Positions 3,965 to 58,148 of a stretch of DNA of 64,000 bases are shown here, in pieces. The position numbers and the translations under genes were made by a program. How positions within the stretch are numbered: the stretch's first letter is position 1; the number at the start of each line of letters is the position of its first letter. This DNA comes from Prostheceraeus crozeri. Taxonomy: Eukaryota; Platyhelminthes; Polycladida; Euryleptidae. The notes beneath the pieces are model-generated. The model ran no database searches. It was not told the origin of the DNA and saw nothing but the letters and a program-made list of their open reading frames with translations. The stretch covers positions 1 through 64,000 of the forward strand of contig CAJQUW010001462.1 in assembly GCA_907163375.1 (NCBI GenBank), given 5' to 3'.

Positions 3965-4640
3965 TGGTCTTTAAAGCTTTTGAAATTTAAGGATGACGAT
4001 TTTCGCCTATTCACTGATCGCACAATGTGTTGTGGCCGGACCAAGTCAGTCCGGTAAAACTACTTTTGTAACTCAATTACTACAATTTAGAAATGAGATG
4101 TTTAATAAAGAAATTAAACGAGTTAAAATGGTGTTATGGCATATTTCAACCACAACTACATTCTGCACTTCGCCAGAAGGGTTATGATGTGAAGCAAGGG
4201 TTACCGACAAACTGAGACATCATAGCAGGTGACTTACTAGTATTAGATGATGTATTACGTGAAAGCAAATCTTCAAAGGATGTAACTGAAATGTTTCAGT
4301 TCATTCAAACTGCACATCATAGGGAAGCTTTTATTATCTATATCACCCAAAATATCTTCGATGGAGGGAAAGAGCAAAGAACTAGAAGTTTGAATACACA
4401 TTATTTGGCAATATTTAAAAAATCCAAGAGACAGCAGTCAGATCTACCACATCATCTCAGTAGACAGATATTACTTCAACAACCTAAAGTTCTTTCAAAA
4501 ATATATGAAGATGTAACTAAGAAAACCACATGGCTACCTATTTATTGATCTAACTCAGGAATGTCCGGAACGACTTCGATTTCGAACTAATATCATACCT
4601 AATTCCGTTGAACCAATGACAGTTTTTCTCGGAACACAGC
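3965..4640 (+). pseudogene. Polinton genome-packaging ATPase (FtsK/HerA type), frameshifted
   Basis: This gene would encode the ATPase that pumps element DNA into capsids. The Walker A loop GPSQSGKTT is at about 4038-4064 and the Walker B strand LLVLDDVL at about 4231-4254, preceded by a GD turn. A downstream region with QN, a basic stretch, and SLNTHY/FKKS (about 4340-4430) matches the sensor/arginine region of this family. A C-terminal block with PYG-like and RFRTNI text follows the stop at 4548. Coding text moves between frames near 4035, near 4130 and after 4548, and an in-frame stop lies near 4215, so this copy is broken. It is the gene immediately before a conserved unknown ORF and the integrase, a usual Polinton neighbourhood. 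Confidence 0.8.
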
Positions 4641-5380: not shown

Positions 5381-6603
5381 ATGTCGCTACAAAAGTTTTG
5401 CTGCTGTTTGAAATCTGCGCTCGAAGGTAAAGGAGAAGAGGGCCTAGAGGTTAATATCAATTGTGTTAGCAGTTGCTGTGGGAGTAATACGCGTGCAAAT
5501 CAAAGCAAGACGATGAGTACAGCAGTGAAACTCAGAAAGATTTATTACGACTTAAATCACCCCGCAAGTTTCAGTGTCCGGAGGTTCTAGCTCGTGCAGC
5601 AGGTGTGGGAATAGAGAAAGTCAAGAAGTGGTTAAGGAGTCAACCGACTTACACTCTTCACAAAAATGCGAGAAAGCGGTTTCCAACGAGAAAATATGTT
5701 GTTAACAATATAGATAGTCAATGGCAAGCGGACTTGGCTGACATGCAACAGATATCACAGTATAATGATGGCTATAAATACATCTTAACTGTAATAGATA
5801 TTTTATCTCGCTATGCTTGGACACGTGCGCTGAAAATCTAAACGAGGACCAGAAGTTGAAGCGGCTTTTCAGAGCATTTTCGATGAGGGGCGTGTTCCGC
5901 AAAGAATACAGGACCGATCAAGGGAAGGAATTCGAAAACTCTCATGTTCGAAGTCTCCTTAAAAGACATAATGTGGAATTGTTTAGTGTCAAAAGTTGCT
6001 TATAAAGCTGCCATGGTTGAGAGGTTCAATCGCACACTGAAGACAAAAATATGGCGCTATTTCACTGCAAAAAATACACATGTTTGGATAGGTGAGCTGC
6101 AGAAATTTGTTAAGAATTATAATGAAAGCTACCATCGAATCATTAAGATGAAACCTGTTGATGTTACCCCAGATAATGCGATGGATGTATGGCTTCGATT
6201 GTATGATAAGAAAGCGAAAAACATTTCCATTGAAAGACAAATTAATGTTCGTGATAGAGGTCGGATTTCAAAGGTTAAGTCTACATTTGAGAAGGGGTAT
6301 CTACCTAATTGGACTGAAGAAGAGTTTTTTGTGGATGAAGTAAATACAAAATTTAGACCCACCATGTATAAATTAATAGATTACCATGGCAATCCAATTG
6401 AAGGAAAATTTTACTCTTATGAATTGCAAGTAGTAGACAGAAGTGAAGAGGTGTACATGATTGACAAAATAATTAGGAGGAAAGGTCATGGCAATCAAAG
6501 GAAATATCTAGTTAAATGGAAAGGATATCCTGATTCATTCAATAGCTGGATAACGCACCAGGATCTACAAAATGTGGAGGTGGGAGACACTCGTAACTTT
6601 TAA
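5381..6603 (+). pseudogene. Polinton integrase (DDE) with C-terminal chromodomain, frameshifted
   Basis: This is a retroviral-type integrase that would join element ends to host DNA. A helical N-terminal region starts best at the ATG at 5513. The catalytic acids are visible: Asp in DLADMQ (about 5731), Asp in RTDQGKEF (about 5914) and Glu in MVERFNRT (about 6017). A chromodomain (about 6451-6590; YLVKWKGYP core) would bind methylated histone tails and steer insertion. The coding text changes frame near 5585, 5835, 5890 and 6000, while the last 219 codons (5944-6603) are uninterrupted. The frameshifts abolish the catalytic triad as one protein. Family and order are clear; this copy is dead. 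Confidence 0.88.
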
Positions 6604-6643: not shown

Positions 6644-8227
6644 ATGTCTATTAACTTCAACATTATTCTTCCAAGCAATAGTAACCCCAAGATATTCCCA
6701 AGTAACAAACCATCTCTATACTGTGTTGAATTCTCTAATCCAATTACTCTGCATGGACCCCATGAAGTTGCTCTAACTGAAATTACTTATCACAACGATA
6801 TCAGTTTGCTAAAGAACAACTATTTTGAATTACATAAAGAAGTGCGAGAGAAGGATGATTGCTTTCGCATATTTCAAAATAGTCTACATGGTACATGGGC
6901 TTGTCATCATCTAACTTTACATCCTTTTTCAACATCTTTACCATCTGTCCAAAACATGATTAAAATTCAAAAGGCATTTGCAACGTCAACTTTTGATTCT
7001 AAGGTTCCCACAATGAGCTTGCAAGATACAGAAAAGGAAATCGGTAGAATGTTTGAACGAATAAATGATCTCTTCAAGCTGACTTTGAATAAATTCTACA
7101 AACCAGTCATAAAGGGGTCAACAAAATTGATGAGGGAAGGGAAGCATGTTCTTCTTGTATTAGGTAAGGATTTGAGTCATACTTTTGGGTATTCCAGAAC
7201 AACTTTCTCATCAAGGTATTGGTACAATGGACGTGGGTGGAATTCGGAGAGGAAAGTCACTGATTTTCAATGTAGAATTGTGCAATTGTATGCATTACAA
7301 AAAAGGAGCATCCGAGTAAAAAATAAATTTGAGGTCATTAGAAGTGTTGAAGACTTTGCAAGAAAGTTTCAAGGATCAGTGCCAGAAACGTTAATGACTT
7401 GTGAATATAAGAAAGAGAAAGTAACTTTATTTACTGTTGAAACGGAGGCAGAATTTATTGTTTTTACTAAAAAGATACCATTGGAAAAGTCTGAGTCCGC
7501 TGTTATTGAATTCGGATCTGAAATGATTGGGATGTTTTAAGGGCCTTGAAAGCGCACCTTGGTTGACAGAGTTTATTGATTCATTCAAGGTTCAATTGTC
7601 CTCTTCTAAACTCAATGCATCAACAAATTCTTCATGGGATATCCACGTTTACAGCAAAGTCATATTGGGTGGATGAATTGTCTACTTCCAGTGAACTTGT
7701 AAAAAGAGTTAATTTGAACATTGAAAGCTTGAAAACGCCATCTGAATTGTGTACAAAGTTAAATGATGTTTGGTGTAGATTACCTTGATGCAGATGAATA
7801 TCACTTTTCTTATGATCCACATAAGAAACGCATGATTCTAAAGGTAGGGAAGAACTCTCTTATCAAGCTGGATAGCGTGTTAACGTCCACATTGGGATTC
7901 TCAAAATCAACTATTTATGAAGGCACATCAATAGGCGATACAGCCCCATCACTAGAGCGTGATATAAGTAACTTATACGTCTATTGTAACATTATTGAAT
8001 ATACAAGGGTTGGCGGACATTGAGGCCCCACTTCTGCGCACATTTCCTCTCTCATTCCGTAAGGAAGCAACTAATCAATCGAGAATTTATTAACACGATG
8101 GTATGTACTAATGAGCAGAAATGTCATCAATAGAATTGACATATCAATTCATGATGATACAGGTGAAGTAGTACCATTCTGTGGTGGTGTTACTGTTTTA
8201 ACACTACACATCAGGACACGAGATTAA
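6644..8227 (+). pseudogene. Polinton minor capsid (penton-like, PY) protein, frameshifted
   Basis: The first 298 codons (6644-7540) begin with a beta-rich region (MSINFNIILPSNSN, then EVALTEITYHN) typical of the Polinton PY/minor capsid protein, whose single jelly roll is thought to form the capsid vertices. After the stop at 7538 the family's text continues in other frames: about 7541-7672, 7576-7788, 7763-8023, and from about 8010 to the stop at 8225. The C-terminal blocks NLYVYCNIIEY, APLLRTFPL and IDISIHDDTGEVVPF are recognisable. At least four frame changes are needed, so the gene is inactive. It would have been about 525 codons. It sits 44 bp before a small basic virion-type gene. Confidence 0.75.
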
Positions 8228-8270
8228 GGCTTTACGCTATTGTGGGATCTATAATTATCTACAGGACATA

Positions 8271-8720
8271 ATGTCAGGCATTTACAGTGGTCCATCCTAT
8301 CAGAGCGGCCATCCCGTGTTTGCTGGAGGTAGACGACAAGTTGGAGGAGGCATATTCCGTGCACTAAGACGTATGGTTCTCCCAACACTCAAAAAGTATG
8401 GCGTACCATTCATGAAGCGGGTTGGAAACAGAGCTTTAGACTTTGGTGCAAATGTTGCAGCTGATGCACTTCAAGGGAGAATATCGGTGAAATCCATGAA
8501 ATTGCGTGCGCAGCAATCTGCCATAGACGCATTAGATGATTTAACAAAGACGAGGCTACAGTTCGGAAGAAACGGAGGAAGTCAAGACAAGTTGGATCAG
8601 GTCGAGTTACTAAGCAAAGGCGCAGGAGAAGTAAAAAAGCCCACCAGAGCAGCACGTTCTAAATCAAGACGTCGTGTGAAAGCAAGAAAGCGCAAACGAA
8701 GGAAGACAACATATTTGTAA
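8271..8720 (+). CDS. Small basic Polinton protein, candidate minor virion/core protein
   Basis: An intact 149-codon ORF between the minor and major capsid genes. The N-terminus is Gly/Ser-rich, then comes GGGIFRALRRMVLPTLKK, a likely amphipathic helix (residues about 26-45). A helical Ala-rich middle follows, and the C-terminal 30 residues are almost all Lys/Arg. Polinton and adintovirus genomes encode small proteins of this shape at this position, compared in the literature with adenoviral pVI or pX (membrane-active or DNA-condensing). The role here is inferred from composition and place, not from a visible catalytic motif. It is one of few plus-strand genes in the element without a frameshift. 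Confidence 0.6.
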   Translation: MSGIYSGPSYQSGHPVFAGGRRQVGGGIFRALRRMVLPTLKKYGVPFMKRVGNRALDFGANVAADALQGRISVKSMKLRAQQSAIDALDDLTKTRLQFGRNGGSQDKLDQVELLSKGAGEVKKPTRAARSKSRRRVKARKRKRRKTTYL

Positions 8721-9741
8721 AGCTAATACGATGCAGAGTATCAATTCGGCTTTGTGTTTCTTTGATTCACCCCCTCATCAAACTGACATTATTTCCTCAA
8801 CTATTGTTGATATAGTCCCCACAACAAATATCGATGGTAACCAACAGCCTATTCAGTTTGATATACCTGCTAATCCACAAGATTATATTGACTGTCAATC
8901 CATTGATTTAGAATTGTGTATACAAATTAAGAAGACTGATGGTACCAATATTGATTCAAGTAAGGATAAAGTGGGATTGACAAATCTTCCTATTGCCAGT
9001 CTATTCTCAGATGTGTATTTAATATTGAATGACAAACAGATTGAAGGAGGGGATCGAGCATATCCCTATGGAGCATACATAAATACAATGACGCAATTTC
9101 AGAAGCAAGCTAAACAGTCACACTTGCAAGTTGCCGGCTGGTATGATGATCAGCAAGGGAAATTTGATGAGGTTTCAAATGGAGGTTTAAAAAAACGAAT
9201 GGAATTGACAGCAGATTCAAAGGAATTGTACTTGAAAGGACCTGTCTATCTTGATTTCCTTCGTCAATCTAGATATCTACTATCACAGGTTAAAATGCAA
9301 ATAAAATTTATTCGTGCAAATCCTGAGTTCGTGTTAATGGCTTTTGGAGCTACAAACTATCAAATCAACATAAGTAGTGCCGTGCTCAATGTAAGGCGAT
9401 TAACAATGAACCCGTCAGTCATCAACGAGCATGCGACAGGATTGAGGAAAAAGCAAATGCAATATATCCAGTTAATCACAGTGTGTTTACAAACTTCACA
9501 ATTGGTGCGGGATCATCCTCTCATGCCTACCCAAATCCTTTTCCCACTGCGATGCCGAAGGCGGTGTATATCACATTTGTGGAAAATGAGTCATTTATTG
9601 GTGCTTTTGAAAAGAATCCATTTAATTTCCAACACTTTAACGTTAGTAAACTAGCACTCTATCAGGATGGAAAATTTGTTGCTTGCAAAGCTTATGAACC
9701 TAACTTTAAAGAGGGTAAATTTGCACGTGAATATGGTTCTA

Positions 9742-11521
9742 CAGACGTGGAAAAAAGTTTATGATAATTTCACCAGAAAGCCGATTTTTCATGTAATCTT
9801 CTTATGGAAGCTTTTGAACTAGTTTATCATAGTTATACGTAATGAAGCATGTATGACATCATCTCTAGGTAGTCTCTGAGCATTTTTTAAAAAAATCGCT
9901 GATATCTGAAGTCGATTTCTGATTTTTTAGGTAGGCCTATGAAATGCACAAAAATATCGATTTTTGAACATTTTCCCTGATTCAATAAATCTGCAGTAAA
10001 TCTTATGATATAGGATAAATGCAGCAATTATTGCTTAAATTCAGCAAATAAAAACACTTGCAATGCCACAAATGCTCATTTATTATTTCCAGGGATGAAC
10101 GTCAGTACTTTGTGGGATAACCTTTGTTTTCCAGAACTCTTTGGATTCTCCTGGGCATGGATTCGACAAGTCTCTCACATTCTTCGCGGGAAATTGCGAT
10201 CCATGACAGTTTGATGTTGCGAATGAGTTCGTGAATGTTGGAGTGCTTTTGAGCATTGACTTTCACTTTCATGCTTTGCCATAGATTCTCAATGGGGTTG
10301 AGGTCTGGGCTGTTACCGGGCCAGTCCAGAACCTCAATCCCCTTGTCCTCAAACCATTTCATTGTTCTCTTGGACGAATGGCACGGCGCGTTGTCCTGCT
10401 GAAAGACTCTTGTACTCGAAATGTTCATGAAGGGAATGAGCTTTTCGTCCAGCACATCGATGTACTTCTCAGAATTCAATCGAACGCCTTTCGGAAGAAC
10501 TGTAAGGCCACCCCTTCCATGAAAGCTGAAGCAGCCCCAAATCATTACGGATGGGGGGTGCTTCACCGTCTTGTCAGTGTACCTTTCATGAATTGAGTTT
10601 GAACCTGAAGGTCTTCTAACGTACTGATGCTGCTGATGGAATTGCAAGAATGTCGATTCATCACTAAATGTCACTTTCTTCCACTGGTCGATGGTCCAGT
10701 TGACATGCGCTTTGCACCATTCCAAGCGCTTGACTCGAGCCTTGGCGGAGATAAAGGGTTTACGACGAGGGGTTCGTGCTGGTAGCTTGAACTTCTTGCA
10801 TAATCGATTTCTTATTGTCTTTGTGGTGATACTATCGAGGACAGGTGACATAAGCCGTTGAATTTCCGTAGACGTAACAAATGGATCCGTTTTTGCAATT
10901 CGATGAATGCGATTGTCAGTTCTATCTGACGTCTTTGGAGGTCTTCCGGAGCGAGACTTGACATTGTGAGTTCCAGTTTCTCTGTACCGTTTCAAAATAT
11001 TTGACACTGTATTTTGTGATATTGAATACTCATATGCAATAGCAGCTTGTGTTTTGAACGTGTGCTTCCTAAGAGCAACGACAGCGGCTTTAACAGAAGG
11101 CGATACTTGCTTGCGCTTGCCCATCTTTGCGAAGAGACTCTGAGAGATTGACTACATTGTATGAACTTGACAATGAAGTTGACTCGATGATTTTGATTGG
11201 ATATCGATTAGGGAACATCAAACCAGCACACTCGTGTCTATTCATAAAGCGTGAGAACAGCGATGCATCATTTCAGGTGAACGTCGAAATTCATCCACTT
11301 TTGTGCATAATAACCATAGTTTCTGAAGAATGTCTAAAACTGCTAAAATGCCAAAAAGGTATGTTTTTGTATGTTTTTGTATACTTTGTGGGCCTATATG
11401 TGTATTCTGTTAGGCCATGATGCGATTTGACTCGATTTAAGTCATTTCTGATAGCGAAAAGTCAGCAAACCTATAATTTTCTATGAATTCGGAATTTATC
11501 ATAAACTTTTTTCCACGTCTG
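9742..11521 (-). mobile_element. Complete Tc1-family transposon inserted in the capsid gene
   Basis: The element begins CAGACGTGGAAAAAAGTTTA at 9742 and ends with the exact inverse at 11521, giving terminal inverted repeats of about 27 bp. A TA dinucleotide flanks both ends (9740-9741 and 11522-11523), the hallmark target duplication of Tc1/mariner elements. Its single gene lies on the minus strand and is intact. Near-identical ends and an open transposase suggest a recent insertion, after the Polinton was already in place. Confidence 0.96.
10102..11124 (-). CDS. Tc1-family transposase, DD34E, intact
   Basis: A 340-residue cut-and-paste transposase of normal Tc1 length. Residues 1-60 form the first helix-turn-helix (SPSVKAAVVALRK ... 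ISQNTVSNILKRY). A GRPPKT linker (AT-hook-like GRP motif) and a second DNA-binding helical domain follow to about residue 125. The catalytic triad is visible: Asp in FSDEST, Asp in FQQDNAPCH and Glu in SPDLNPIEN, the last two separated by 34 residues (DD34E). The C-terminus ends in a Tc1-type NKGYPTKY. No stop or frameshift is present, so it could encode active enzyme. It is antisense to the host capsid gene. Confidence 0.96.
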   Translation of the reverse strand: MGKRKQVSPSVKAAVVALRKHTFKTQAAIAYEYSISQNTVSNILKRYRETGTHNVKSRSGRPPKTSDRTDNRIHRIAKTDPFVTSTEIQRLMSPVLDSITTKTIRNRLCKKFKLPARTPRRKPFISAKARVKRLEWCKAHVNWTIDQWKKVTFSDESTFLQFHQQHQYVRRPSGSNSIHERYTDKTVKHPPSVMIWGCFSFHGRGGLTVLPKGVRLNSEKYIDVLDEKLIPFMNISSTRVFQQDNAPCHSSKRTMKWFEDKGIEVLDWPGNSPDLNPIENLWQSMKVKVNAQKHSNIHELIRNIKLSWIAISREECERLVESMPRRIQRVLENKGYPTKY

Positions 11522-11794
11522 TACTTTCACTGCACTGAGCATGTTTAACACAGGTGATTCAAATGGAATTACAATGGATATGTATAAAAATGGTTACTTC
11601 TTCATTATATACAATCTCACAGCAGATGCAGATCTAGGCGGTGAAAGCGTAGGAGTTACAAAGTCTGGAAATCTACGACTAGAGGTGTCATTTGAGTCAC
11701 CTTCGAAGAAAACAATTACTTGCCTCATTTATGCTATCTATGATAGCAAAGTTGAAATAACGAGAATGCGAGACGTAACTGTCAGCTATCAGAG

Positions 11795-12255
11795 ATGAGT
11801 AACTTAAGCAACATACAAATCTTGAGGAAAATGGAAATGCTCATCCCTACTCCAAGTCAATATTTCTGGATGTCTTTTCTAGAGATAATTTACCTAATTC
11901 AATTCCTTTCTATCCTTGTTCGCTTATCATCAATACGGACAGCAACAATCTTCCTGGTAAACATTGGATTGCAGTGTACATCAATCGCTATAAAGTGGCT
12001 GAATATTTTGACTCTCTTAATCTACCTCGCTTACATGACATTGCACTATGGATGAATAGGTTCTCCTGGACGATTAAGAAAGTTACATCGTTTCCACTCC
12101 AAAGCAATGTATCTCTCATGTGCGGCGGTTATGTGCTATATTTCGTCAACGAGAGACCATTGAAAAATAACTGCAAAAGTGTTTTACAACTTTTTTCGAA
12201 AGACTGCTATAAAAATGATGTAATTCTTACAAAGTATATTGAAACTGTTTTGTAA
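11795..12255 (+). pseudogene. Polinton adenain-like cysteine protease, one frameshift
   Basis: This is the capsid-maturation protease of Polintons, related to adenovirus adenain. The ATG at 11795 overlaps the end of the capsid gene (ATGA). The first dozen or so codons are in one frame; the core is in another, from about 11836 to the stop at 12253. There the VFSRDNLP block, the catalytic His in KHWIAVYI (His codon 11962-11964), the acidic partner in YFDS and the nucleophile Cys in LMCGGYVLYF (codon 12121-12123) are all visible in order. A single-base frameshift near 11832-11842 separates start and core. AATAAA follows at 12256. Length and motif spacing match the family. Confidence 0.82.
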
Positions 12256-12386
12256 TAAAGTTTTATTTTATATGTAAATATCCTTGTTTTATGTTCCAAA
12301 TCGTTGGGTTTAGAGTGAAAGCAAAACATGTTTACATTTCAATATGTATTTACAAATATACAGTTCTTTTCTAAATATTTACATAG

Positions 12387-12956
12387 CTACAATGTAGATT
12401 TCACAAATATTTTTCTCAAATCACATAGGATGGGAGGAACATCATTTATGTCTTTAATGCCGGTTATCACAATCTTTCCATTATGGAATACATGAACATG
12501 ATATGGGTGCCAGTTAGTCATCTGTGCTGCTGGAAATAGTTCCACTTCATAAGTGAGATTATTTGATGATGTAACTTTACGAAAGTCATAATGATAGTTC
12601 AATTCACATAACACAGTCATTGTCTTCACTTCCCATTCAGATAATGAGTCACTAAGTAAATTTTCCAACGTAGAATGTAGATATGGTAGATCACCATCAG
12701 TGAAGCCACCAACACACTGGATTGTTCCATTTGGAAAGAATAGGATAGTCACATATTTATCCTTCCTCTGTATCCTCCATGTTAACATTGAGGGTCTTCC
12801 TAGATGTAGATTCGTTGTCGGCTTCATCTTGTGTTTTATTAATAACCATTGATTTCGATTGGGAATGTTCCGCTCGATTTCTTGAAGATTGAGTTTTGAG
12901 TTTACTTTTGTAGTTAACATGCGATTCACGACTTCCATCCGCTTGATGTCCTCCAT
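12387..12956 (-). CDS. TATA-binding-protein-like (TBP fold) protein encoded by the Polinton
   Basis: An intact 189-residue ORF, close to the size of a bare TBP core. It shows two direct repeats of the TBP half-saddle. Repeat 1 (about residues 8-102) has NSKLNLQEIERN, then a MLTWRI strand, an ILFFPNGTIQCVGG hairpin and a long helix. Repeat 2 (about 106-186) has MTVLCELNYHYDFRKV, YEVELFPAAQM, VHVFHNGKIVITG and a final helix. The YE-ELFP and GKIVITG blocks are diagnostic of TBP in my judgement. TBP bends TATA DNA to start transcription. The start at 12956 gives the whole first repeat; ATG at 12938 is an alternative. It overlaps the upstream PC4-like ORF by 200 bp in another frame. Function as a working TBP is inferred. 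Confidence 0.72.
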   Translation of the reverse strand: MEDIKRMEVVNRMLTTKVNSKLNLQEIERNIPNRNQWLLIKHKMKPTTNLHLGRPSMLTWRIQRKDKYVTILFFPNGTIQCVGGFTDGDLPYLHSTLENLLSDSLSEWEVKTMTVLCELNYHYDFRKVTSSNNLTYEVELFPAAQMTNWHPYHVHVFHNGKIVITGIKDINDVPPILCDLRKIFVKSTL

Positions 12957-13380
12957 CCTTAATGAATGAAATCATAGGTGGTAGTATCTCTTTTGTAAAG
13001 TTTCTCCATGTGACGTCACTGAAACGGAAAAATTGATAGTCAATATCTTCCCTCTTTGGTGAACAGACGTATAGCTTGACGGTAGAGTCACACTTTATCC
13101 ATACCTTTTGATCGAGGGGAATCTTCATCCGTGTCTTATGGTTGTCAATCAGATCAGCGAAGTCTTTCAGTGAAGATAATGCGTCAAGGCTAATGCAAAC
13201 GCCACGATGTTTTCCACCACTATTTGTTATTAAGTGACGAAAGACTACTTTCATAGAATTTGTTATGTGAATGCTTTGTGAGTCATTTAATTTCCATGTT
13301 CTAATGTAATGAGGCATGTTTTCAAATATAAACCTAAATTTATTTGTTTGCATAAAGCTTGCTATTTTACATCTCAACAT
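12757..13380 (-). CDS. PC4-like (ssDNA-binding coactivator) candidate, Polinton gene
   Basis: A 207-codon open ORF directly upstream of the TBP-like gene. Residues about 36-82 look like a PC4/SUB1 domain: strand SIHIT, strand MKVVFRHLI, a basic KHRGVCISLD turn and helix ALSSLKDFADLID. A weaker second copy may span residues 97-136 (VKLYVCSPKR ... VTWRNFTKEI). PC4 proteins bind single-stranded DNA and aid promoter melting by RNA polymerase II. The last 65 residues are hydrophilic and low-complexity, and overlap the start of the TBP-like ORF in a different frame. So either the genes truly overlap or a frameshift turned a former fusion, or a shorter gene, into this tail. The assignment rests on pattern only. 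Confidence 0.45.
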   Translation of the reverse strand: MLRCKIASFMQTNKFRFIFENMPHYIRTWKLNDSQSIHITNSMKVVFRHLITNSGGKHRGVCISLDALSSLKDFADLIDNHKTRMKIPLDQKVWIKCDSTVKLYVCSPKREDIDYQFFRFSDVTWRNFTKEILPPMISFIKDGGHQADGSRESHVNYKSKLKTQSSRNRAEHSQSKSMVINKTQDEADNESTSRKTLNVNMEDTEEG

Positions 13381-13558
13381 ATCGGAATGATGTTGAGTGC
13401 TACGTCTTCAATTCATAGTAGGACTACCTATGTTTTAGTAATTATTTCTACATATCGGAAAAATGTAGAAATTTTATTTTATATTTAATCTACCTATATA
13501 TTATTAAGCATAACTAGGAAGAAATGTAGTGATTGGTTAGTTTACTTTGTTAAATTTC
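13381..13558. other. Short intergenic spacer between two minus-strand genes
   Basis: AT-rich spacer with no ORF. It would carry the promoter of the PC4-like/TBP-like pair on the minus strand. No clear TATATAAG is present here, only loose TATATA-type text near 13495. Confidence 0.3.
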
Positions 13559-16500
13559 TTAAACTTCTACGTCACCTGTAGCAGGAAGGCATCTCCTTCT
13601 CTTTGAAGGTGGGGGAAGACCTAAACTATAGTGTCCATATGGTAGAGATAGATTTTTATTTAACCAACAGCGCTTATCCTCCCAAAGTGAAAGTCCTCGC
13701 TTTCTAAATGATTTTGTAGTGACTACGTGATTTTTTGAATTTATAATTGTCATTTCCTCATTTGTATCTTTCTCACTGTAGTACACAGTCCTATAATCAT
13801 TATGATGTAATTTTTTAACTGCAGTTCTCTGCACTCCTTTTGCCCGCTTGATGCTATCACAAGTTGAATCTAGATATTTCATTGAATACATTTTTGGTTT
13901 TAGCAAGATCATTTCCTCAAGCAACTTCCCCGCACACTCATCCTTAAAACAACCTAATCTGGCTCTGTTTGTAGCTGAGTATAATCGGTGATGACTGTCA
14001 TAGTTTGAAGAGTCAAATTTTTCACCAAAATATAGCAGTACATCCTCCAGGCTGACAGATGGTGAGGTGTACAAACATAGGAAAAAACTGTCGGTATCAC
14101 CTCCACAAAGCCGCGTTCTATTTATCAGTGGACATCTTTTCAAATCATTGTAGTATAACTGGTACATTTCCAACTTGCTATAGTCAAGTACCGCCTGACC
14201 AACGTAAATCAATTTATTCAACATTATTGAAAGTTTATACATTTCCATACCAACTAAATCTTCATCAAATATCTTATGCTGTACATAGAGAGGATGATTT
14301 GATAATTTTCGACATTGTTCCACGCTGTTTACTAATTTGAATTTTCTCCTTCGTCTTACATTTTCCATTGTTTTACCATATAAAGATTTATTTTTCAACT
14401 TATAAAATGACTTTTCAAAGTTGGTACTTGATTGAGCTCTCTTTTGTGAATTCATATCAATGTACGTTCTTAACCATGGCTTTTGTGTGAACTTTATACC
14501 GTTGTGAATTTCTGTGATTTTCATACCCATGGATTAATAAAATTTTAACATTGAATAGTGTACAATATAATTTTCCCTATTGAATTGATGAAGCAAGAGT
14601 TTTTTAGTTGAACTGAATTTAGTGTCTGGTCTTATTGTCCTATGTAAATCCTTCATATAAGTTGAGAACATATTTTGCTCTACGGTCTGCATCTCTGTCG
14701 CTAATGGGAAATCGGCAGTGTCATCATGTATGTTTGCAGGATATTCCAAGTTCAAATCAAAAATATATCCAATTTCACCATCATCATCGATAGCTTGTAT
14801 ATTTTCTTCGTTTAGAAAATAGCTTACTTCACTATCACTCAACCATTTAAAATTTGAATGTGGTAGACTCTTACTGAGCGAAGAACCGTAAAGGTTATTG
14901 ACATCAATGTAAGATAAGTGACGACTTTCATTTGTATTATTTTGTAATTCCGAAATGCGTGCACGTGCTCTGTGAATGTTCGTAAAAGTCATTCCACCCC
15001 TTATTCCCCTTTCGAAGAGATTATACATACTTTCATCTTGTATGTAGTGTGGAGGATTATTAGATGTCAAATTTAAAGCTGAAGTAAAGCTAAGATGTGG
15101 AAGGCTAACGAAATGGACAGGATCTACTTCATCTTCACTTTGACTTAGTGACCTAAAAACTTCAAAAATATCTGCCAGTAATAATACATCCAGTTTCAAA
15201 TATGCAAGCATGTAATCACCAAAATTGTTACAATTGAAAGCAAACCGCGCATTACCAGCGTGCTCATATTCTTCATCTGAACAATGTTCACGAGTGAGAT
15301 CATTAGAAAATTCACATTGCGGTGGCAGACATTTTTCTAACAATGTATTTAGACTTTTGAAATAACAGTAGGGAAACACTCCCTTTTGATAAAGAATATC
15401 ATCTGTTAACAGGGGAAATTCATTTCTTAGTTTTTCTACATGTTTATAAACTTGCAATCCTCTTGCTAACTCACTCAATGATGCACTTAAAAATTGATAA
15501 GAATCTAAGAATTTTAACTTGAAGTAGATTGTTTTTCCTTTGTATTCGTTCACAGGGACGCTGGCGGATAGAGTTATATACTTTTCAGCTGTTGCTGCTA
15601 CTACTTCCAATTTCCATGACTTCTTCTTTCCAATTGCTTTATAGCAAACGATATGACTATCATAATTCTTAAAATTATGGAAGAAGATGGGTAGTTCCTG
15701 CCTATTTAGTTTTAATCGAAGATTGCATTTACTGCATATTGTTTGTCTATATCTTCCTGTTAAATGGTCGTGATCTCTTACTTTTATGCAATCATCACTA
15801 AATGCAGCTTTACATTTATTACAATTTTTTACATTTTTATGTTTTTCTTCTTCATCTGAAGAAAGAGACATTGGTTGACGACTTATTGCACGCTGATTAT
15901 CATATAAGTTTTGAGCTATATTTTCTAGGTGATCCAAGAAGTCCATAATACAATTCTCTCCTTTGAAGACATAATATTTGTTTTCAAATCTTGACTGGAG
16001 AGCTTTATGCCAAACATGATAAACACCAACTGCTGCCGGTTTGTGTACTTTATTATCGATGTAGCACTCTATATCTGCATAAACAACTAAAGGAGGACTT
16101 AATTGATATTCCATGCTACTTGTGCTTACCTCTAGTTGTTTAGGCATTCTTTCTATTTGTGCCTTTCCACGAACACAAAATTGATAATGTCGCTCCAAAG
16201 TTGTCTTATATGTAAACGATCGGGTACACCGATCGCAGAAATGTTTGTATCTTCTATTTATTTTTCTATATAATCTTGATAGTTTTCTGATTCCACAATA
16301 GTGTGCACGTTCATTGTTTATAATTAGTAGTATATTCACAGTTCGTTTACCAATAAAGTTGCTGCTATATCGAACACCTTTTAGTCCTTTTTCGTAAAGG
16401 TGAATGTTGATTTTAATGTCATTATTTTTCTCAAACTTAGGAATATCTTTAATTGATACGGGTGTAGAGATGTCATTCATATTTAGTTCAGATGTCCATT

Positions 16501-17008
16501 TACTATATGATTTTATCTCATTCCTAGAATATGATACATCATTGTAATGTAGCATTGATAGAACTGAATACAAGAAACAGTCATTTGCATTTGAATGTAC
16601 ATTAATTACAGCCTTCGAATCTTTCAGACACTTTGGTAGATTAAATACTTCTCCACCAGAAAGTAATGGACTAGTAATAACATTGAATTCTATATTTAGT
16701 ATTTCGTCTATAACCCAATTGCTACCCTTATTTGCAAAAGCTTCAATATGACTTGAGAGACTATTTAAGTTATCTTGGAACCATGTATCATAGTCATAAA
16801 TATAGTTTGTGGATGATGAAGTAAAGTGTGCGAGAAACGTTTCATCTTCCTGAGGATTTGATCGCACATAACGAATTTGTGCTACCAGACGACCACGTAG
16901 TTGAAAATTTTCTAGAAGGTTTGACACTAAGTTTTCTAATATAGATCGGATACTTAATAAAAAGGAAGTTATATCTACTGTGTGTGCTGATGGTGTGATG
17001 TCGTACAC
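13559..17008 (-). pseudogene. Protein-primed DNA polymerase B of the Polinton, one in-frame stop
   Basis: About 1,148 codons in a single frame, broken only by TAA at 14534-14536 (14531-14533 and the ATG at 14530 continue in frame). The N-terminal 280 residues hold a cysteine-protease-like region (NDCFLYSVL ... AHYCGIRKL) and a C2HC finger (CDRC ... HYQFC). Then come exonuclease motif I (YADIEC, about 310-315), an HNH-like knuckle (CNKC ... RDHDHLTGRY ... CSKC, 396-428), Exo II (FHNFKNYDSH) and Exo III (YMLAYLKLDV, about 599-608). The polymerase follows with IDVNNLYG (about 701-708), KNKSLYG and GGDTDS after the stop. This enzyme would copy the element from a terminal protein. The stop falls between palm motifs A and B, so the product is inactive unless read through. 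Confidence 0.9.
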
Positions 17009-17242: not shown

Positions 17243-17595
17243 TTGAGAAAAACTTAGAATTATTCCAGTTGCATACACCTGCATACAACAAGGATTTTTT
17301 CATTGAATAGGTACATATGTTATATCTTTCGAAAGCTCTTTTCATTCTGATTCCAATGATGTATTGTATGCAATATGTATGACGCCATCCGAAGCAGCTA
17401 TAGCCCTTTGAAAGATAGATAGAATTTAGTTGAGAAACTTAGAAATTGAAATCATAAATTTTTCTTCCTGCATACACTTGCATACAACAGGGATTTCTTC
17501 ATCGAATGGGTACATACCTTATATCATCAGAAAGGTCTTTTCATTCTCTAGCTAATGATGTATTGTATGCAATATGTATGATATCATCCTAAGGT
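17243..17595. repeat. Two-copy tandem repeat, about 190-200 bp
   Basis: Unit 1 (17243-17429) and unit 2 (17430 to about 17595) share TTGAGAAA..CTTAG, GCATACAC(C/T)TGCATACAACA and the 20-mer GATGTATTGTATGCAATATG. Spacing is 187 bp at the start and 199 bp later, so unit 2 carries an insertion. I see no ORF between the polymerase start and 17880 except these repeats. Confidence 0.75.
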
Positions 17596-18842: not shown

Positions 18843-19194
18843 TTACACTTACATTGTAAACCTCTTGTTTTCATTTCGCAAATTCTGTAAATGGGATTCT
18901 GATTAGTAAATAATAGAACATTCATAACATAATTTCTGATCTGTAAACGCATTATGAAAATAAAAATTGTCATCATAGTCACAATGGCCACAATTGTCGC
19001 ATTTGAGCAAACAGTCTCAAAACAAACACCTGCTTAAGTACCGAAATAGATGTTCGCATCCCTATTCTAATTCACATACTCTAATTCAATTTCGGAACAA
19101 GCCGTTCCGATCGCAACACACAAATAAGTGTACCGAATTATTAAGTATGATCTCAATTCGCCTATCAATCGGAACGCGGTTCCTATTTACATGT

Positions 19195-19350
19195 TCCTAT
19201 CCATGTTCGCATCCATTCGCAATTCGGAACATGTTCATATCCATGTTCGCATTCGCAATTCGGAACATGTTCATATCCATGTTCGCATTCGCAATTCGGA
19301 ACATGTTCATATCCATGTTCGCATTCGCAATTCGGAACATGTTCCTATCC
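19195..19350. repeat. 36-bp minisatellite, about four copies
   Basis: The unit begins CATGTTCATATCCATGTTCG and continues CATTCGCAATTCGGAA, 36 bp in all. Four copies run nearly identically, with degenerate flanking halves back to about 19040 (GTTCGCATCC, AATTCGGAAC). Because 36 is divisible by three and the unit lacks stops, two plus-strand frames stay open. The resulting 213- and 88-codon ORFs look like artefacts of the repeat. Confidence 0.85.
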
Positions 19351-19421
19351 ATGTCCATTATCAGTGCGTCCGCAATACTAACTACTCACAGTAGGCCTAT
19401 ATGGAAAGTTAAGGAAGAACG

Positions 19422-32316: not shown

Positions 32317-33438
32317 TTACATCGCACCCATGCTTCCACGCCGTATTTGTTGCCACATCTTTTTATGACGGTTCACTGCCATTTTTGCAATATCAACCTT
32401 TCGATCCCAAGTTTTTTCTTTCTTTCTGAGTTCGTAGAGTTCAGCGACACTGGATACATACTCCATCACTTCAGGGACACGGTAGTCAGATAGTTGTTGA
32501 CGGAGTCGCTTATTAGTGATTTCAGCCTTTGATCTTTCTTGTTCCACCTGCTCAGTTTCTGTGTCGATTCGGCGCATTAACTCATTTCGAGATCCTATTT
32601 CACTCTTCAAACGGCTGGCTTCACTAGTAAGAGTGTAGAGTTTCTTCTTGTAACCGTTCAGTACTTGAAGCGTATTGCCGGCCATTAGTTTCAAACGAAG
32701 AAGTTCCTGGTTCTTCTCGTCAATTTTTTCAAGGTACTGACTGTTTTCAATTTTTAGCTGTTGGAAATCAACTTCATGAAGGACCTCTCCCATTTCTTCT
32801 TTTTGCTTTAGCTGCATATGCAATTTCTTTCGTTGAACTTTCAGAGTTGAATTCTTCAAACGTAGCTTTTCAATAAGGGCCTCCCTAGCTCGTAATCTGT
32901 CTTCAAAATATCGAATTATCTTCTCAGCAAGCACTTTGTTTGTTCTAGGATTCATAGCTCCCTTCACTATATCACGCTCAAATTCATACGAAGATTTTCT
33001 GATCTCAACAATCCTTACATCAGCTTCTTCCATAATCGCTTTGTATGTGTCTAATATACGCTCTGATTCGTCTTTCAATCTCTCTATTTCTTCTCGTTGC
33101 TCTTCAATTTCTCTTTGAGCAATATCACACTTTTGCTCGGCAGTCAATTTCAATGATCTTTCGGAAGCAGAGCTACGACTTTTTGATCGCTTTCGACCAA
33201 CACGTCCACTCAGCTCGGCTTGAGAAGAAGATATAGATGACAATCCACCAGTTAACATACTTTGGGGTTCGACACGCTTGAAATATTTTTCAAACATTTG
33301 ATTTTCCGTCCTAAGAACTTCATTTGATCGAAGAGTTTCTTCCAATAATCTAAACACCTCTTCGTCTGGTATTTCTTGCAACGGATCATCTTGCACGTCG
33401 ATGCTCGTATCAACACTCATTGTCTCTGATTCAGCCAT
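32317..33438 (-). CDS. CCDC113: Coiled-coil domain-containing protein 113 (CFAP263), single exon
   Basis: A complete 373-residue ORF, about the length of vertebrate CCDC113. The first 110 residues are acidic then Ser/Arg-rich (RVGRKRSKSRSSASE). The rest is nearly continuous coiled coil with the family's conserved text: LTAEQKCDIAQREIE, YFEDRLRAREALIEKLRLKN, EMGEVLHEVDFQQLKIEN, LLRLKLMAGNTLQVL and the terminal DYRVPEVMEYV ... KKMW. The protein acts with CCDC96 in motile cilia and at centriolar satellites. The gene has no intron here, although mammalian CCDC113 has several. It is head-to-head with a plus-strand gene that starts 363 bp away. The ATG chosen gives the full conserved N-terminus. 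Confidence 0.9.
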   Translation of the reverse strand: MAESETMSVDTSIDVQDDPLQEIPDEEVFRLLEETLRSNEVLRTENQMFEKYFKRVEPQSMLTGGLSSISSSQAELSGRVGRKRSKSRSSASERSLKLTAEQKCDIAQREIEEQREEIERLKDESERILDTYKAIMEEADVRIVEIRKSSYEFERDIVKGAMNPRTNKVLAEKIIRYFEDRLRAREALIEKLRLKNSTLKVQRKKLHMQLKQKEEMGEVLHEVDFQQLKIENSQYLEKIDEKNQELLRLKLMAGNTLQVLNGYKKKLYTLTSEASRLKSEIGSRNELMRRIDTETEQVEQERSKAEITNKRLRQQLSDYRVPEVMEYVSSVAELYELRKKEKTWDRKVDIAKMAVNRHKKMWQQIRRGSMGAM

Positions 33439-37200: not shown

Positions 37201-39461
37201 TTTCGTCTGCACCTACTCAATCTTGCACGGATTTCAATGAAATTAGTTCCAAAATGATCAGGAGACACTACTCACTAAAACAAGCTGGTGTTCGAATGGA
37301 TTTGATCTTTTCTAATTCCAAACGACCTTTTTTATTGCTGTCAACTGTCATTTAAGGCACCCTGCAGGGGACGATAGCAAAATTTTGCGTAAATTCTGTC
37401 TGACCGAAATTTGGTGCAGGCCTTTCTTATTCCTTGGTGCCTCAAAATACTTGATGATTTGATTGAAAATCAAGGGAATCGGCTAAAATCTATAATACCT
37501 ACAGATATAGGTTACTACATGTACATTCAGGCATTGCAATATGAAATTCTGAATCTAGGTGCTTCATTGGAGACTACGTAGAATTGTAGATACACGAAGA
37601 AAGCACTGTGATGCATCAATGTCAATCTGTCGTTAGGAATAAGAAGAATTTTAAAACAGCAGTTCAACTCTTTCAGTTCAGTTGGAATAGCTGGAATTTC
37701 CCTTCCACTCAGTTCACTCGTTCACCAGTGATCAGCTATAAGCCCTATTCGCTCGCTCACTCACTCACTCACTCACTCAGAAGTTCGAATGCACTGCTAC
37801 TGTCGCCACTTAGTTGCAACAATAAGACTACCCATAGTGCATTGTTGCCACGCAACCATTTTCAGAAACTGCACTAGCATCGCAGCGATTCTGATTCCAT
37901 AGTTGTTGATTCTTTGTGCATAATGCACATTTTAGAGTGCATATCCAAATTTCCAACTTTTTAAAATCAAACCTTGATGGAGGAGGACGATCCGATGCAC
38001 CAAAAGTGCCTCAACAGATTATCAAATGAAAAGGAATCAGAAAATCGGAAGGAAACCTGGGGATGATAAATGAATAATTACTGGAGCGTACATCTGCAAG
38101 TTAGAAACAGAAATTAAGAAATAATTAAATTTTTGGATGATCTCAAGTACCACCAAATACGTCTAGGCCTATAGTGTGTTCCCATAAAGACTCAAGAGAG
38201 GATTGAGCATGTTACTCATAAGTGGATATTTTTTGAACACAAGAGTGCGCTAGTTAGCGGATCAAAGAACACGGTTTATATGGATGACATGATCCAATTT
38301 AATCAAGTTAATTGCTTTTGAAAAGAAATTCCGGCAGAAAATGTGAATTTCATGTAGCTAGTTGTTTGGATATGCATTGTATGAATCATGCATGAAGAAT
38401 CAACAACTCAAGAATAAAAATTATTGTGATAGTGTGTATTTTGACATGTTTTAAACTTTTAAGATGAAACAGAAGCCTGTGGGTGTCTTATTGCCACTAC
38501 CAAATGGTAAGAAGAGTCACTAACGTTTTTATTCATTATTATGCATCGTATATTGCATAACTCCAGGGGATATGATCTTTCACATCTTTCACACACGTAG
38601 TAGCTCCTAAAACATTTGACTGACAAAATTATGATTTTTGTAAAACATCGTGGCACATTCATCCAAAGTGCCCTCCACCGATTGAAATTATTTATTTCTG
38701 GCTAAAGTAACATGATTTCATTTATTCCCTCAACGACCTGCGACCTGTGACGTAGAAGCTTCAGCCTCCGATACCTACATATTATTCTTATCCCTCAACG
38801 TCATGATAGAGAACAAAACGTTTTACATCGCGAAGACATTAAATGTTGAATGTAGATAGTCGTGTATGACGCCTTTGCAAGAAGAGCTCAGGACAGCAAC
38901 ATTGGCCTAAGGATGCATTTAATGGGCACGGGTGCTTTTAAGTGATACTCACCAATCATGTATGTGATTTATTTTTGCGGAACTTCGACAGAGCCTTTGA
39001 AGAACTAGGTGCTTATACACTAACCCCAAATGTACATGTGACATTTAATTAAACTATGGAATCAGCTGTGGAACCTACTTAAACATAAATGCCATTTAAA
39101 TTTGATTTTTTTTCTAATGCAACAAATTTAGAGAAGAAAATTCACACTCCAAGTAGGAAGATGATTACATTCATTTATAAACAGATATTGCTCCTGAAGA
39201 ATCAGTAATACTTAACACTCCACGTGAGCAAGCGTGTATTACTTAACATTAAGTCATTAATCCTGTTTTAGAGACCCAATGTCTAGTCTTCACAACGCTT
39301 GAGTGCATGTCACCTCATTTTAATAGGGTTGTGTGAGGCAAAATGAGCAGTGGGTAAGATGAGTACATCAAAGTAAAAGCTATATTTTGAGAAAATTACT
39401 CGGAGTAGAGAGATAAATCGGACCTGAATCATCCTGATAATCGGAATAAATCATCCTGATA
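34282..39461. other. Intron 1, first part; no coding seen
   Basis: No ORF here has a domain. A Penelope-tail-like stretch (CCTGAAGATGATTGCTGGAT near 35525) is too short to call. A (CTCA)n microsatellite occupies about 37755-37779. The intron from 34282 to 53022 would be 18,741 bp if exons 1 and 2 are joined directly. Confidence 0.45.
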
Positions 39462-40164
39462 GTCCGGCAGCCAGAACGAGTTTCTGCAGGGAACGAGGCC
39501 GAAAGTGAGACTTTCACAGAATGATGTACACCCTATGCCTACTACGAATCCGCACGTCTGCCGCGCTCTAGTGAGTTCCTCTTCTTGTCAGACAGGATCA
39601 AAGAAAAACACATGTAAATCCAATGGGACGCAGATTGAAGTTTTTGGTTAAATGTTTTCTCTGGTTAAACGAAAAGCACTAAGCCTAGAGCCATAATTGT
39701 TGGCATGGAATGTCATCAGATCATTTCCTTTTACGTGCATGTGCTATTATCATGCATCTGATCGACAATTATGTGAGAATGTGGTTCAATGTGGATGAAG
39801 TGGGCCAACATGTTTGCCGACATTGAGAGGCTCGCCAAATCTAAATGTGTCTAGCTTTACAGACAGAGGTGCTTGAACATGAAAGGAAATGATCTGATGA
39901 CATTCCATGCCAAAAATTATGACTCTAGCATTAGTACTTTTCGTATAATCAGAGAAAACATAGAAAATTTCATTTTAGCCAAAAAATACAATCTGCGTCC
40001 CATTGGATTACCATATGTTTTTCTTTGATTCTGTCTGACAAGAGGAGGAACTAACTAGAACTCGGCAGACGTTCAGATTCGTAGTAGGCATAGGGTGTAC
40101 ATCATTCTGTGAAAGTCTCACTTTCGGCCTCGTTCCCTGCAGAAACTCGTTCTGGCTGCCGGAC
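39462..40164. mobile_element. Foldback element copy A (GTCCGGCAGCC ends)
   Basis: A 703-bp element starts GTCCGGCAGCCAGAACGAG and ends with the exact inverse. The arms stay complementary for 200 bp or more: GGAACGAGGCCGAAAGTGAG, TGTACACCCTATGCCTACTA and GATCAAAGAAAAACACATGT all recur inverted. No protein is encoded. Other copies lie at 51092-51814 and 57047-58148, with an internal fragment at 46247-46546. No convincing target duplication was found. Confidence 0.85.
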
Positions 40165-50372: not shown

Positions 50373-51091
50373 GGTGTAACCGAATTGTCGCCGCCACAGT
50401 TTTCTGCCAAGCTGACATTACTTCCTCGATGTATAGTTTGTATGAATCATAGACATCGGACCACGTGACCAATGACCTCTCAAAGCGTTTCTAAACTATC
50501 GAAAGGCAGAATTTCATTGTATAATTGATTTGTCGGTTTTTCAAAGACTCATAACGTCCGATTTCTACCCATGATTGCTGCATTTAGAGAGAAATCCATG
50601 ACTTAAGTCGGAAGCATTATTTGTCGACTTACCCGAATGTTCTCTATCTCTCTGTTGTGCTTTCTATTTTATTTGTAGCTAACTTCATGATTAACTTTCA
50701 GCTATGATGGAGAAAATGGACTTCTATCACACAAAATGATCAACTAGAGCACGCCTTTAAATGTTTTTTCTTTAGACATCGCAATGCAAGAACTGTCCCT
50801 CCAGGATATCAGCAGTTCAGACGGATCTTCTGATCTTCGAAATGTTCATCTTACCGTTCAGTATCAGGGAACAAAGTAAAGACCTCAATGTTTGAAACTC
50901 ATTCATTTTTGGATCTATTTGTTGAATTGTTAAGGCAGTTTCTGCAATTTCATAGAAATCGGTTCAATGTGATGCATCACATTTGCAAAGAAGTCGCACC
51001 TGTCAGACATGTCAGTCTCACAACTGTGGGTGCAAGTGAATTGGAACACGCTGGGCTGTGCTACAATTGCAAATAGCACATCGGATAAGTA
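50373..51091. other. Intronic sequence without a gene
   Basis: Only short ORFs without domains (for example 50888-51076). No repeat that I can match elsewhere in the window. Confidence 0.4.
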
Positions 51092-51814
51092 GTCCGGCAG
51101 CCAGAACGAGTCTCTGCAGGGAACGAGGCCGAAAGTGAGACTTTCACAGAATGATGTACACCCTATGCCTACTACGAATCGGCACGTCTGCCGAGTTCTA
51201 GTGAGTTCCTCTTCTTGTCAGACAGGATCAAAGAAAAACACATGTAAATCCAGTGGGACGCAGATTGCAGATTTTGGCCAAAATGAAATTTTGTATGTTA
51301 TCTATGATTAAACGAAAAGTAGTAAGCCCAGAGTCATAATTTTTGGCATGGAATGTCTTCAAGTCATTTCCTATCATCTTCATGCATCCCTGTCTACAAA
51401 GCTAAACACATTTAGATTTGGCGAGCCTCTTAATGTCGGCAAACACAAACATTTTGAGCAACTTTATCCACATTCAACCACATTCCCACATGCATTGCCG
51501 ATTGGATGCATGATAAAAGCACATGCATATCATTGGAAATGATTTGAAGACATTCTATGCCAAAAATTATGACTCTAGGCTTAGTATTTTTTGTTTAATC
51601 AGAGAAAATATAGAAAATTTCATTTTAACAAAAAATTGCAATCTGCGTGCAATTGGATTTACATGTGTTTTTCTTTGATTCTGTTTGACAAGAAGAGGAA
51701 CTCACTAGAACTCGGCAGACGTGCCGATTCGTAGTAGGCATAGGGTGTACAGCATTCTGTGAAAGTCTCACTTTCGGCCTCGTTCCCTGCAGAAACTCGT
51801 TCTGGCTGCCGGAC
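51092..51814. mobile_element. Foldback element copy C (GTCCGGCAGCC ends)
   Basis: A 723-bp copy with start GTCCGGCAGCCAGAACGAG and an inverse end at 51814. The left arm is nearly identical to copy A at 39462. The arms contain the same inverted GATCAAAGAAAAACACATGT blocks. No ORF is convincing. Confidence 0.85.
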
Positions 51815-57046: not shown

Positions 57047-58148
57047 ATCCGGCAGCCAGAACGAGTTTCTACAGGGAACGAAGACGAATATGAGACTCAG
57101 AATTATATGCACCCTATGCCTACTGCGAGTCTGCACGTCTGCCGAGTTGTACCTGGTTCCACTTCCTGTCAGACAATATTAAAGAAAGTTAATCCAATTG
57201 GAAGCAGAGTGCAGGTTTTGGTTCACTCTTGAAGTCCGAAACGTGTATGTATGATTGGAAATGACCTGAAGACATATCATGCCGAACATTATGCTGTTAC
57301 GCTTAGAAGTTTTCAGTCAATGTGAGAAAACATAAAACATCTCATCGTAACCGAAGACTTCAATCTGCGTCCCATTGGATTTACATGTCTTTGCCTTTGA
57401 TCCTATCTGACAAGAAGCAGAACCAGGTAGAACTCGGCAGACGTGCAGATTCACAGTAGCCATAGAGTCTACACACAGAATTAGATTCTTCTGCGCGCGC
57501 TTCGGTTTCCTAGAAAGGGAGATTTGTATGTAGCTTTATTATCGAAATGGCACTTCACAGAATTAGACAACTTGCTCCTTCTCGAATGGATAATTCGTGT
57601 ATCGCTTGCTATTGGAAATGGCAAACAATGAGCTGTCAGCAGAGGACACCAGAGCCAGTGAGAGATGCGTGCGTACTGTGATATCACTTCCCACACACCA
57701 AAACACACATCCATGCCTGGCTTCGATTCACTGTATGCACTATACAGTGAGAAATGCCGAGGAGATGATATGAAATCATCAAGTGAACTAATTTTCGTAC
57801 GCCTGCAATTTTTTTAATAATGATCGGAAGGGCCAACATTATGGAGAAAACTTGTGCGCAATGATCTGAATTCTTCGAATCTGAATGAATTTTGACAATC
57901 GAAGCACTTTGCTGGAACTCACATTGATCCGCAAACGACGCACGACTTTTTTCCTATATCTGTAAGGTATTAGGAATTCCTTTTTGCCCATTTAATAGGC
58001 TCCTCGATGTGCCTTCAATTTCGTATTAATCACACTTCTAGCAATCGAAGCAGATAAACAAAATATTTAATTCTATGGGTCTACATCATTTTGTGAAAGT
58101 CTCATTTTCGGCATGGTTTCCTGCAGAAACTCGTTCTGGCTGCCGGAC
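57047..58148. mobile_element. Foldback element copy D with internal repeat
   Basis: The start TCCGGCAGCCAGAACGAG and end CTCGTTCTGGCTGCCGGAC define a 1,102-bp copy, more diverged than copies A and C. Its right half contains the repeat shared with 24655-24900 (GCGCAATGATCTGAATTCTT, CGCACGACTTTTTTCC). So that repeat is either part of a longer version of this family or a nested insertion. Confidence 0.75.

Follow-up and report, generated by a model that had tools for sequence, protein, structure and literature searches.

A TATA-binding-protein-like gene in a decayed Polinton-like element of the polyclad flatworm Prostheceraeus crozeri

The TBP-like gene and its product

The stretch analysed here (the window) comprises positions 1 to 64,000 of contig CAJQUW010001462.1 from the polyclad Prostheceraeus crozeri (assembly GCA_907163375.1). 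It contains a decayed element similar to Polintons and adintoviruses, and on the minus strand of this element, at 12387-12956, lies a gene for a protein resembling the TATA-binding protein (TBP). The first-pass annotation had described at this site an intact ATG-initiated frame of 189 codons with the motifs YEVELFP and GKIVITG; the frame, which covers both TBP lobes, and both motifs were found. The longest open reading frame (ORF) obtained in 500 base-shuffles of 12001-13600 had 143 codons and none of the 500 reached 189, so a frame of this length is not expected by chance. Its start codon has A at -3 and G at +4.

The Pfam family TBP (PF00352) matches the product in two stretches, with an E value of 4.4e-14 and 52.5 bits against a cut-off of 22.9. 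As a single query in PDB, the protein gave weak matches with TBPs ranked first (best 9.9e-5), and a profile of 12 sequences of the TBP-like family gave a best E value of 2.6e-17. Each of the 35 PDB sequences below 0.001 in the profile search is a TBP or a chain that contains one, with 4wzs_D identified by its locus name alone. The predicted fold is a complete two-lobe TBP saddle, with the TBP match far above the next rows, archaeal TBPs at the top rank, and an identity to cellular TBPs of 16-20% over the aligned fold. The match to TBP is strong by sequence and by fold, which disposes of the objection that a profile search would find none. The two direct repeats described earlier correspond to the TBP lobes in profile and model, whereas the bare sequence shows no repeat above chance: the score of lobe 1 against lobe 2 (26) was reached by 335 of 1000 shuffles. 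No match was found in PHROGs for this ORF or for the ORF that overlaps it upstream. Structure neighbours in BFVD are giant-virus TBPs and others; none of the 50 matches listed, many of them nameless, was named as Polinton or adintovirus. In comparisons with viral TBP-fold proteins, the best E value was 7.3e-11 and the identity 7-19%.

Relatives, trees and diagnostic residues

The first listing of relatives contained 16 proteins, among them P0001, which is the window's own TBP-like protein as predicted in the database. Counting P0001, a profile search recovered 117 proteins with E up to 1 among 2011 candidates. The family is large and its members come from many contigs, the longest contig among the relatives listed being 24.7 kb. 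Local alignment of P0001-P0022 with the window protein gives identities of 47-100%. A larger tree of 89 rows was computed from 79 of the 117 with at least 155 aa, three shorter ones, the window protein, and six cellular references, TBPL1 among them. In this tree, 73 rows including the window protein form one clade (SH-aLRT 98) apart from cellular TBPs. In a more careful tree of 40 rows, the 30 element-type rows group as a clade with support 99/98, and the six cellular rows do so with 100/98. P0104, P0106, P0107, and P0109 stand beside the cellular side in the 40-row tree and beside the 73-row clade in the 89-row tree. Both trees warn of long branches meeting, so any placement of the clade with respect to archaeal TBP is tentative; the name "element-type" is taken from the copy in the window alone.

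Constraining the window protein to group with human and yeast TBP lowers the log-likelihood by 130.9 units (pAU 0.0008). Close affinity to cellular TBP is rejected by this test, in which human and yeast TBP stand in for the host's own, and the gene belongs to a TBP branch apart from the cellular TBPs tested. Capture of a host gene had to be considered, as host TBPs are universal and the window also contains host genes. That a host TBP or TRF gene was recently captured by the element, or merely lies beside it, is nevertheless highly improbable: besides the tree, with its stand-ins for the host protein, the identity to human TBP chains is only 19-20% over the aligned fold, and the ORF is uninterrupted. 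The earlier reading of a TBP-like gene carried by a Polinton is supported by the strength of the TBP match together with the rejected union with human and yeast TBP.

Residues were tallied over the 73 rows in human 339-residue numbering. P0110, P0111, P0114-P0117, and TBPL1 were dropped before the alignment; P0104, P0106, P0107, and P0109 and the five other cellular references were aligned and kept outside the tally. Four phenylalanines of TBP kink DNA. Three of them, F214, F288, and F305, are invariant across the 73 rows, and the position of F197 is Pro in 67, a gap in five, and Leu in one. Since three of the four kinking Phe are kept and the fourth is P, the 189-aa product is TBP-like by descent and fold, but not a canonical TBP. 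The lobe-1 loop is also longer in the element-type subfamily than in cellular TBP. Contact positions follow a published scheme, converted here to human residue numbers. According to PMC7221094, TBP touches TFIIB through two C-lobe glutamates, and TFIIA, TAF1, Brf1/2, and Mot1 are bound by a basic cluster of the N-lobe. In the window protein the two C-lobe acids are E137 and E139. The position of E284 holds Glu in 72 rows and Asp in one, and that of E286 holds Glu in 69 and Asp in four, so that both positions are acidic in 73/73. At four N-lobe basic positions checked, the window protein has S, T, N, and a gap, and K236 of the N-lobe helix is Glu in 57 of the 73 rows. The window protein lacks the N-lobe basic patch, which is largely missing from the family too. 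A TBP-fold protein could serve other ends: it might bind DNA or act as a decoy, competing with host TFIIB or TBP or titrating them, or it might work in replication or packaging. This is rather unlikely in view of the three kinking phenylalanines and both acidic TFIIB-contact positions, kept without exception, and of a fold match so far above the next rows.

The surrounding element and the overlapping ORF

The element is Polinton/adintovirus-like by a chromodomain after an integrase piece, by PolB motifs, and by gene layout, with other parts recognized by eye. PolB lies on the strand of the TBP-like gene and is parted into two in-frame pieces by a stop codon at 14534-14536 (minus strand). The N-terminal piece (14534-17008, minus strand) has the motifs DIEC, HNFKNYDSH, and YLKLDVLLL, presumably exonuclease-like, and an HNH/endonuclease VII-like insert (Pfam Endonuclease_7, E 1.6e-5). 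An OTU-like N-terminus, as expected of a protein-primed PolB, was read by eye only, and Pfam PolB gives no match. The C-terminal piece (13559-14530, minus strand) carries GGDTDS, which we likewise take to be a polymerase motif; it has no Pfam match above cut-off and no convincing PDB match. Directly upstream of the PolB start run TGACCTTGACCTT-like units, and two 137-nt direct repeats, 82% alike, lie upstream of PolB at 17258-17593.

The probable element protease, at about 11795-12255 on the plus strand, is convergent with the TBP-like gene. It is frame-disrupted, with two ORFs recognized by eye, an AATAAA polyA signal starting at 12254, and no significant Pfam match in the region. The placement of the TBP-like gene between protease and polymerase, as first described, is thus borne out on the polymerase side by the motifs and the insert, whereas on the protease side it was read by eye and Pfam lends no support. 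A probable major capsid gene (8731-11798, plus strand; ORFs and hexon-type identity by eye) is split by a Tc1-like transposon, and its piece at 8731-9654 has no Pfam or PDB match. The transposon has 32-nt inverted repeats at 9740-9771 and 11492-11523, and its transposase (10102-11124, minus strand) is an uninterrupted ORF of 340 aa (DDE_3, 1.9e-17). Further probable capsid-module ORFs at 6644-8720 on the plus strand (6644-7540, 7763-8023, and 8271-8720) were recognized by eye and have no convincing Pfam match. Retrovirus-like integrase pieces ending in a chromodomain (Chromo, 7.4e-10) lie at 5605-6603 on the plus strand; the integrase part itself is weak (rve 0.026 and rve_3 0.11, both below cut-off). 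A possible C-terminal remnant of a packaging ATPase at 4291-4548 (plus strand) was read by eye, its best Pfam match (0.13) being unrelated. Terminal repeats were not found, so the element ends may be lost. Among 19 scanned ORFs of the element region, none has a Pfam match to TFIIB, and Rfam gave 0 matches in the window.

An upstream ORF at 12757-13317 on the minus strand overlaps the TBP-like gene by 200 nt in another frame. It is intact, and would be 207 aa long if started at ATG 13380; the start at 13317 is likelier, as it fits the starts of relatives P0119 and P0120. Its model is a tandem beta4-alpha arrangement with a Pur-alpha-like core, at low confidence. No Pur-alpha/PC4/Whirly-like Pfam family was found for any of five members of this family with E up to 10, and in PDB its profile found nothing beyond an insignificant match (1.4). 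PC4 identity, an idea by eye, was abandoned at a probability of 0.2% against a two-sequence PC4 profile.

Both overlapping frames look conserved, as TBP relatives P0002, P0017, P0018, and P0020 keep all or most of the TBP N-terminus, and a good part of the C-terminal tail of the upstream ORF is retained in its four relatives (P0118-P0121). Gene callers tend to avoid overlapping ORFs. In the window, the upstream ORF stops near TBP residue 66, and P0001 begins just past that stop; among P0001-P0022, 17 of 22 start at residues 57-69, four at 1-13, and one at 113. We take these late starts to reflect callers sidestepping the same overlap elsewhere, which indirectly suggests that the pair stays together in relatives, although contig ends could explain some of them. 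From the upstream ATG to the TBP ATG there are nine ATGs, both counted, so plain leaky scanning is unlikely, and expression of the TBP-like gene by a separate promoter or by splicing is more plausible.

The TBP-like gene is intact in an element whose PolB is interrupted by a stop codon and whose integrase, protease, and capsid genes are fragmented, as might be expected if the element is dead and the host keeps the protein as a regulator of its own. We regard such exaptation as improbable, because the overlapping upstream ORF is intact as well, the family is spread over many contigs, and the decay of the element may simply be recent.

Searches of IMG/VR confirmed no relative for the TBP-like, upstream-ORF, two PolB-piece, or capsid-piece queries. 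In GTDB genomes, one scan was empty, and the other gave one match among 39 stretches (L001). This match lies within a 522-aa ORF of a Bacteroidetes metagenome-assembled genome, an ORF that we take by eye to be RNase Y-like, and was dropped as chance.

Elsewhere in the window, a 36-bp tandem repeat runs through an open frame at 19178-19354 (FAIRNMFISM repeats). The 373-aa ORF at 32317-33438 (minus strand) has a CCDC113/CCDC96 coiled-coil domain (9.4e-47), is apparently intronless, and is probably a host gene. Families of long direct and inverted repeats at 39460-40164, 51090-51814, and 57246-58148 are perhaps foldback-like host mobile elements.

Comparison with known systems and a possible role

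To our knowledge, no promoter factor has been described for Polintons. No report of a Polinton TBP was found in the literature searched, in which core Polinton papers were incompletely covered, and none was met in the parts consulted of PMC10675990, PMC12220804, PMC11071296, PMC11071308, PMC8097293, PMC10120064, and PMC12721341. Known parallels are the TBP-like proteins of giant viruses, poxviruses, and herpesviruses and the TBPs of putative mirusvirus elements in an alga. The element agrees with Polintons, Mavericks, and adintoviruses in having PolB on one strand and a convergent integrase and capsid module (PMC8097293 and PMC11071296), and an adintovirus integrase with chromodomain is described in PMC11071296. 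PMC8097293 names eight core genes of vertebrate Mavericks (int, ppolb, atp, pro, major and minor cp, pz, and pw), with no TBP among them; the window element differs in its TBP-like gene and overlapping neighbour alongside PolB, and its possible ATPase remnant is on the integrase strand, whereas the Maverick ATPase is on the PolB strand. The Cymbomonas elements of putative mirusvirus origin are similar in that a TBP gene lies inside an integrated viral element; according to PMC10675990, these TBPs are sporadic and occur in heliorhodopsin-bearing elements, and none is mentioned there for the Polinton-like viruses of the same genome. The herpesvirus TBP mimic, ORF24 of KSHV, is likewise supplied by a virus for its own promoters, but has 752 residues and an N-terminal domain that binds Pol II, while the element protein has 189 aa and no extra domain (PMC7498053). 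According to PMC7221094, the first TFIIB-contact glutamate is kept in about 40% of viral TBPs, and nearly all viruses with a TBP-like protein also carry a TFIIB-like one, poxviruses excepted; with these acids varying and such a partner usual in viral TBPs, the element-type family differs in keeping the acids, and no TFIIB match came up in the 19 ORFs scanned around the window copy. Cellular TBP, the TFIID subunit, shares with the element protein the two-lobe saddle, three kinking phenylalanines, and the TFIIB-contact acids, and is set apart by its F197, its N-lobe basic patch, and its separate clade.

On the computed basis of TBP homology, two-lobe fold, separation from the tested cellular TBPs, and residue pattern, the gene probably encodes a TBP owned by the element, from a clade apart from cellular TBPs. 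Several observations weigh against this. The relatives were found through shared 5-residue words, which biases the sample towards conserved motifs, and the basic patch partly persists in the family (R235 stays R/K in 22 of the 73 rows and K243 in 27). No 8-mer is shared by at least three of seven upstream stretches as a promoter motif, and TATATA/TATAAA-type sites are few: two precede the 13317 ORF, at -183 and -166, and the third precedes the protease, at -189, within coding sequence. Because this copy of the element is broken, its TBP-like gene may also be inactive here.

As an element-owned TBP, the protein would bind element promoters, perhaps with altered specificity given the conserved Pro in place of one of the four kinking Phe. 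The conserved YExELFP stirrup could bridge to host TFIIB and RNA polymerase II, and the protein might evade those host factors that hold on to the N-lobe (TFIIA, TAF1, and Mot1). If the Pur-alpha-like fold holds, the upstream protein would act as a partner that binds single-stranded DNA, either in opening promoters or in replication. The uncoupling of element transcription from host TBP, proposed in the first-pass annotation, would be consistent with these residues. More tentatively, and with some doubt on our part, a Polinton-type virus lineage may carry an overlapping two-gene cassette, a TBP with fixed Phe-to-Pro change and a Pur-alpha-like single-strand partner, that replaces host TBP on its own promoters and borrows host TFIIB and Pol II.

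An element-owned TBP would give Polintons a means of choosing their own promoters and where transcription starts. A TBP that retains the TFIIB contact but lacks the patch used by host regulators would offer a natural way to ask which of its surfaces are required for initiation, and a well-populated TBP branch is added for work on the origins of viral TBPs.
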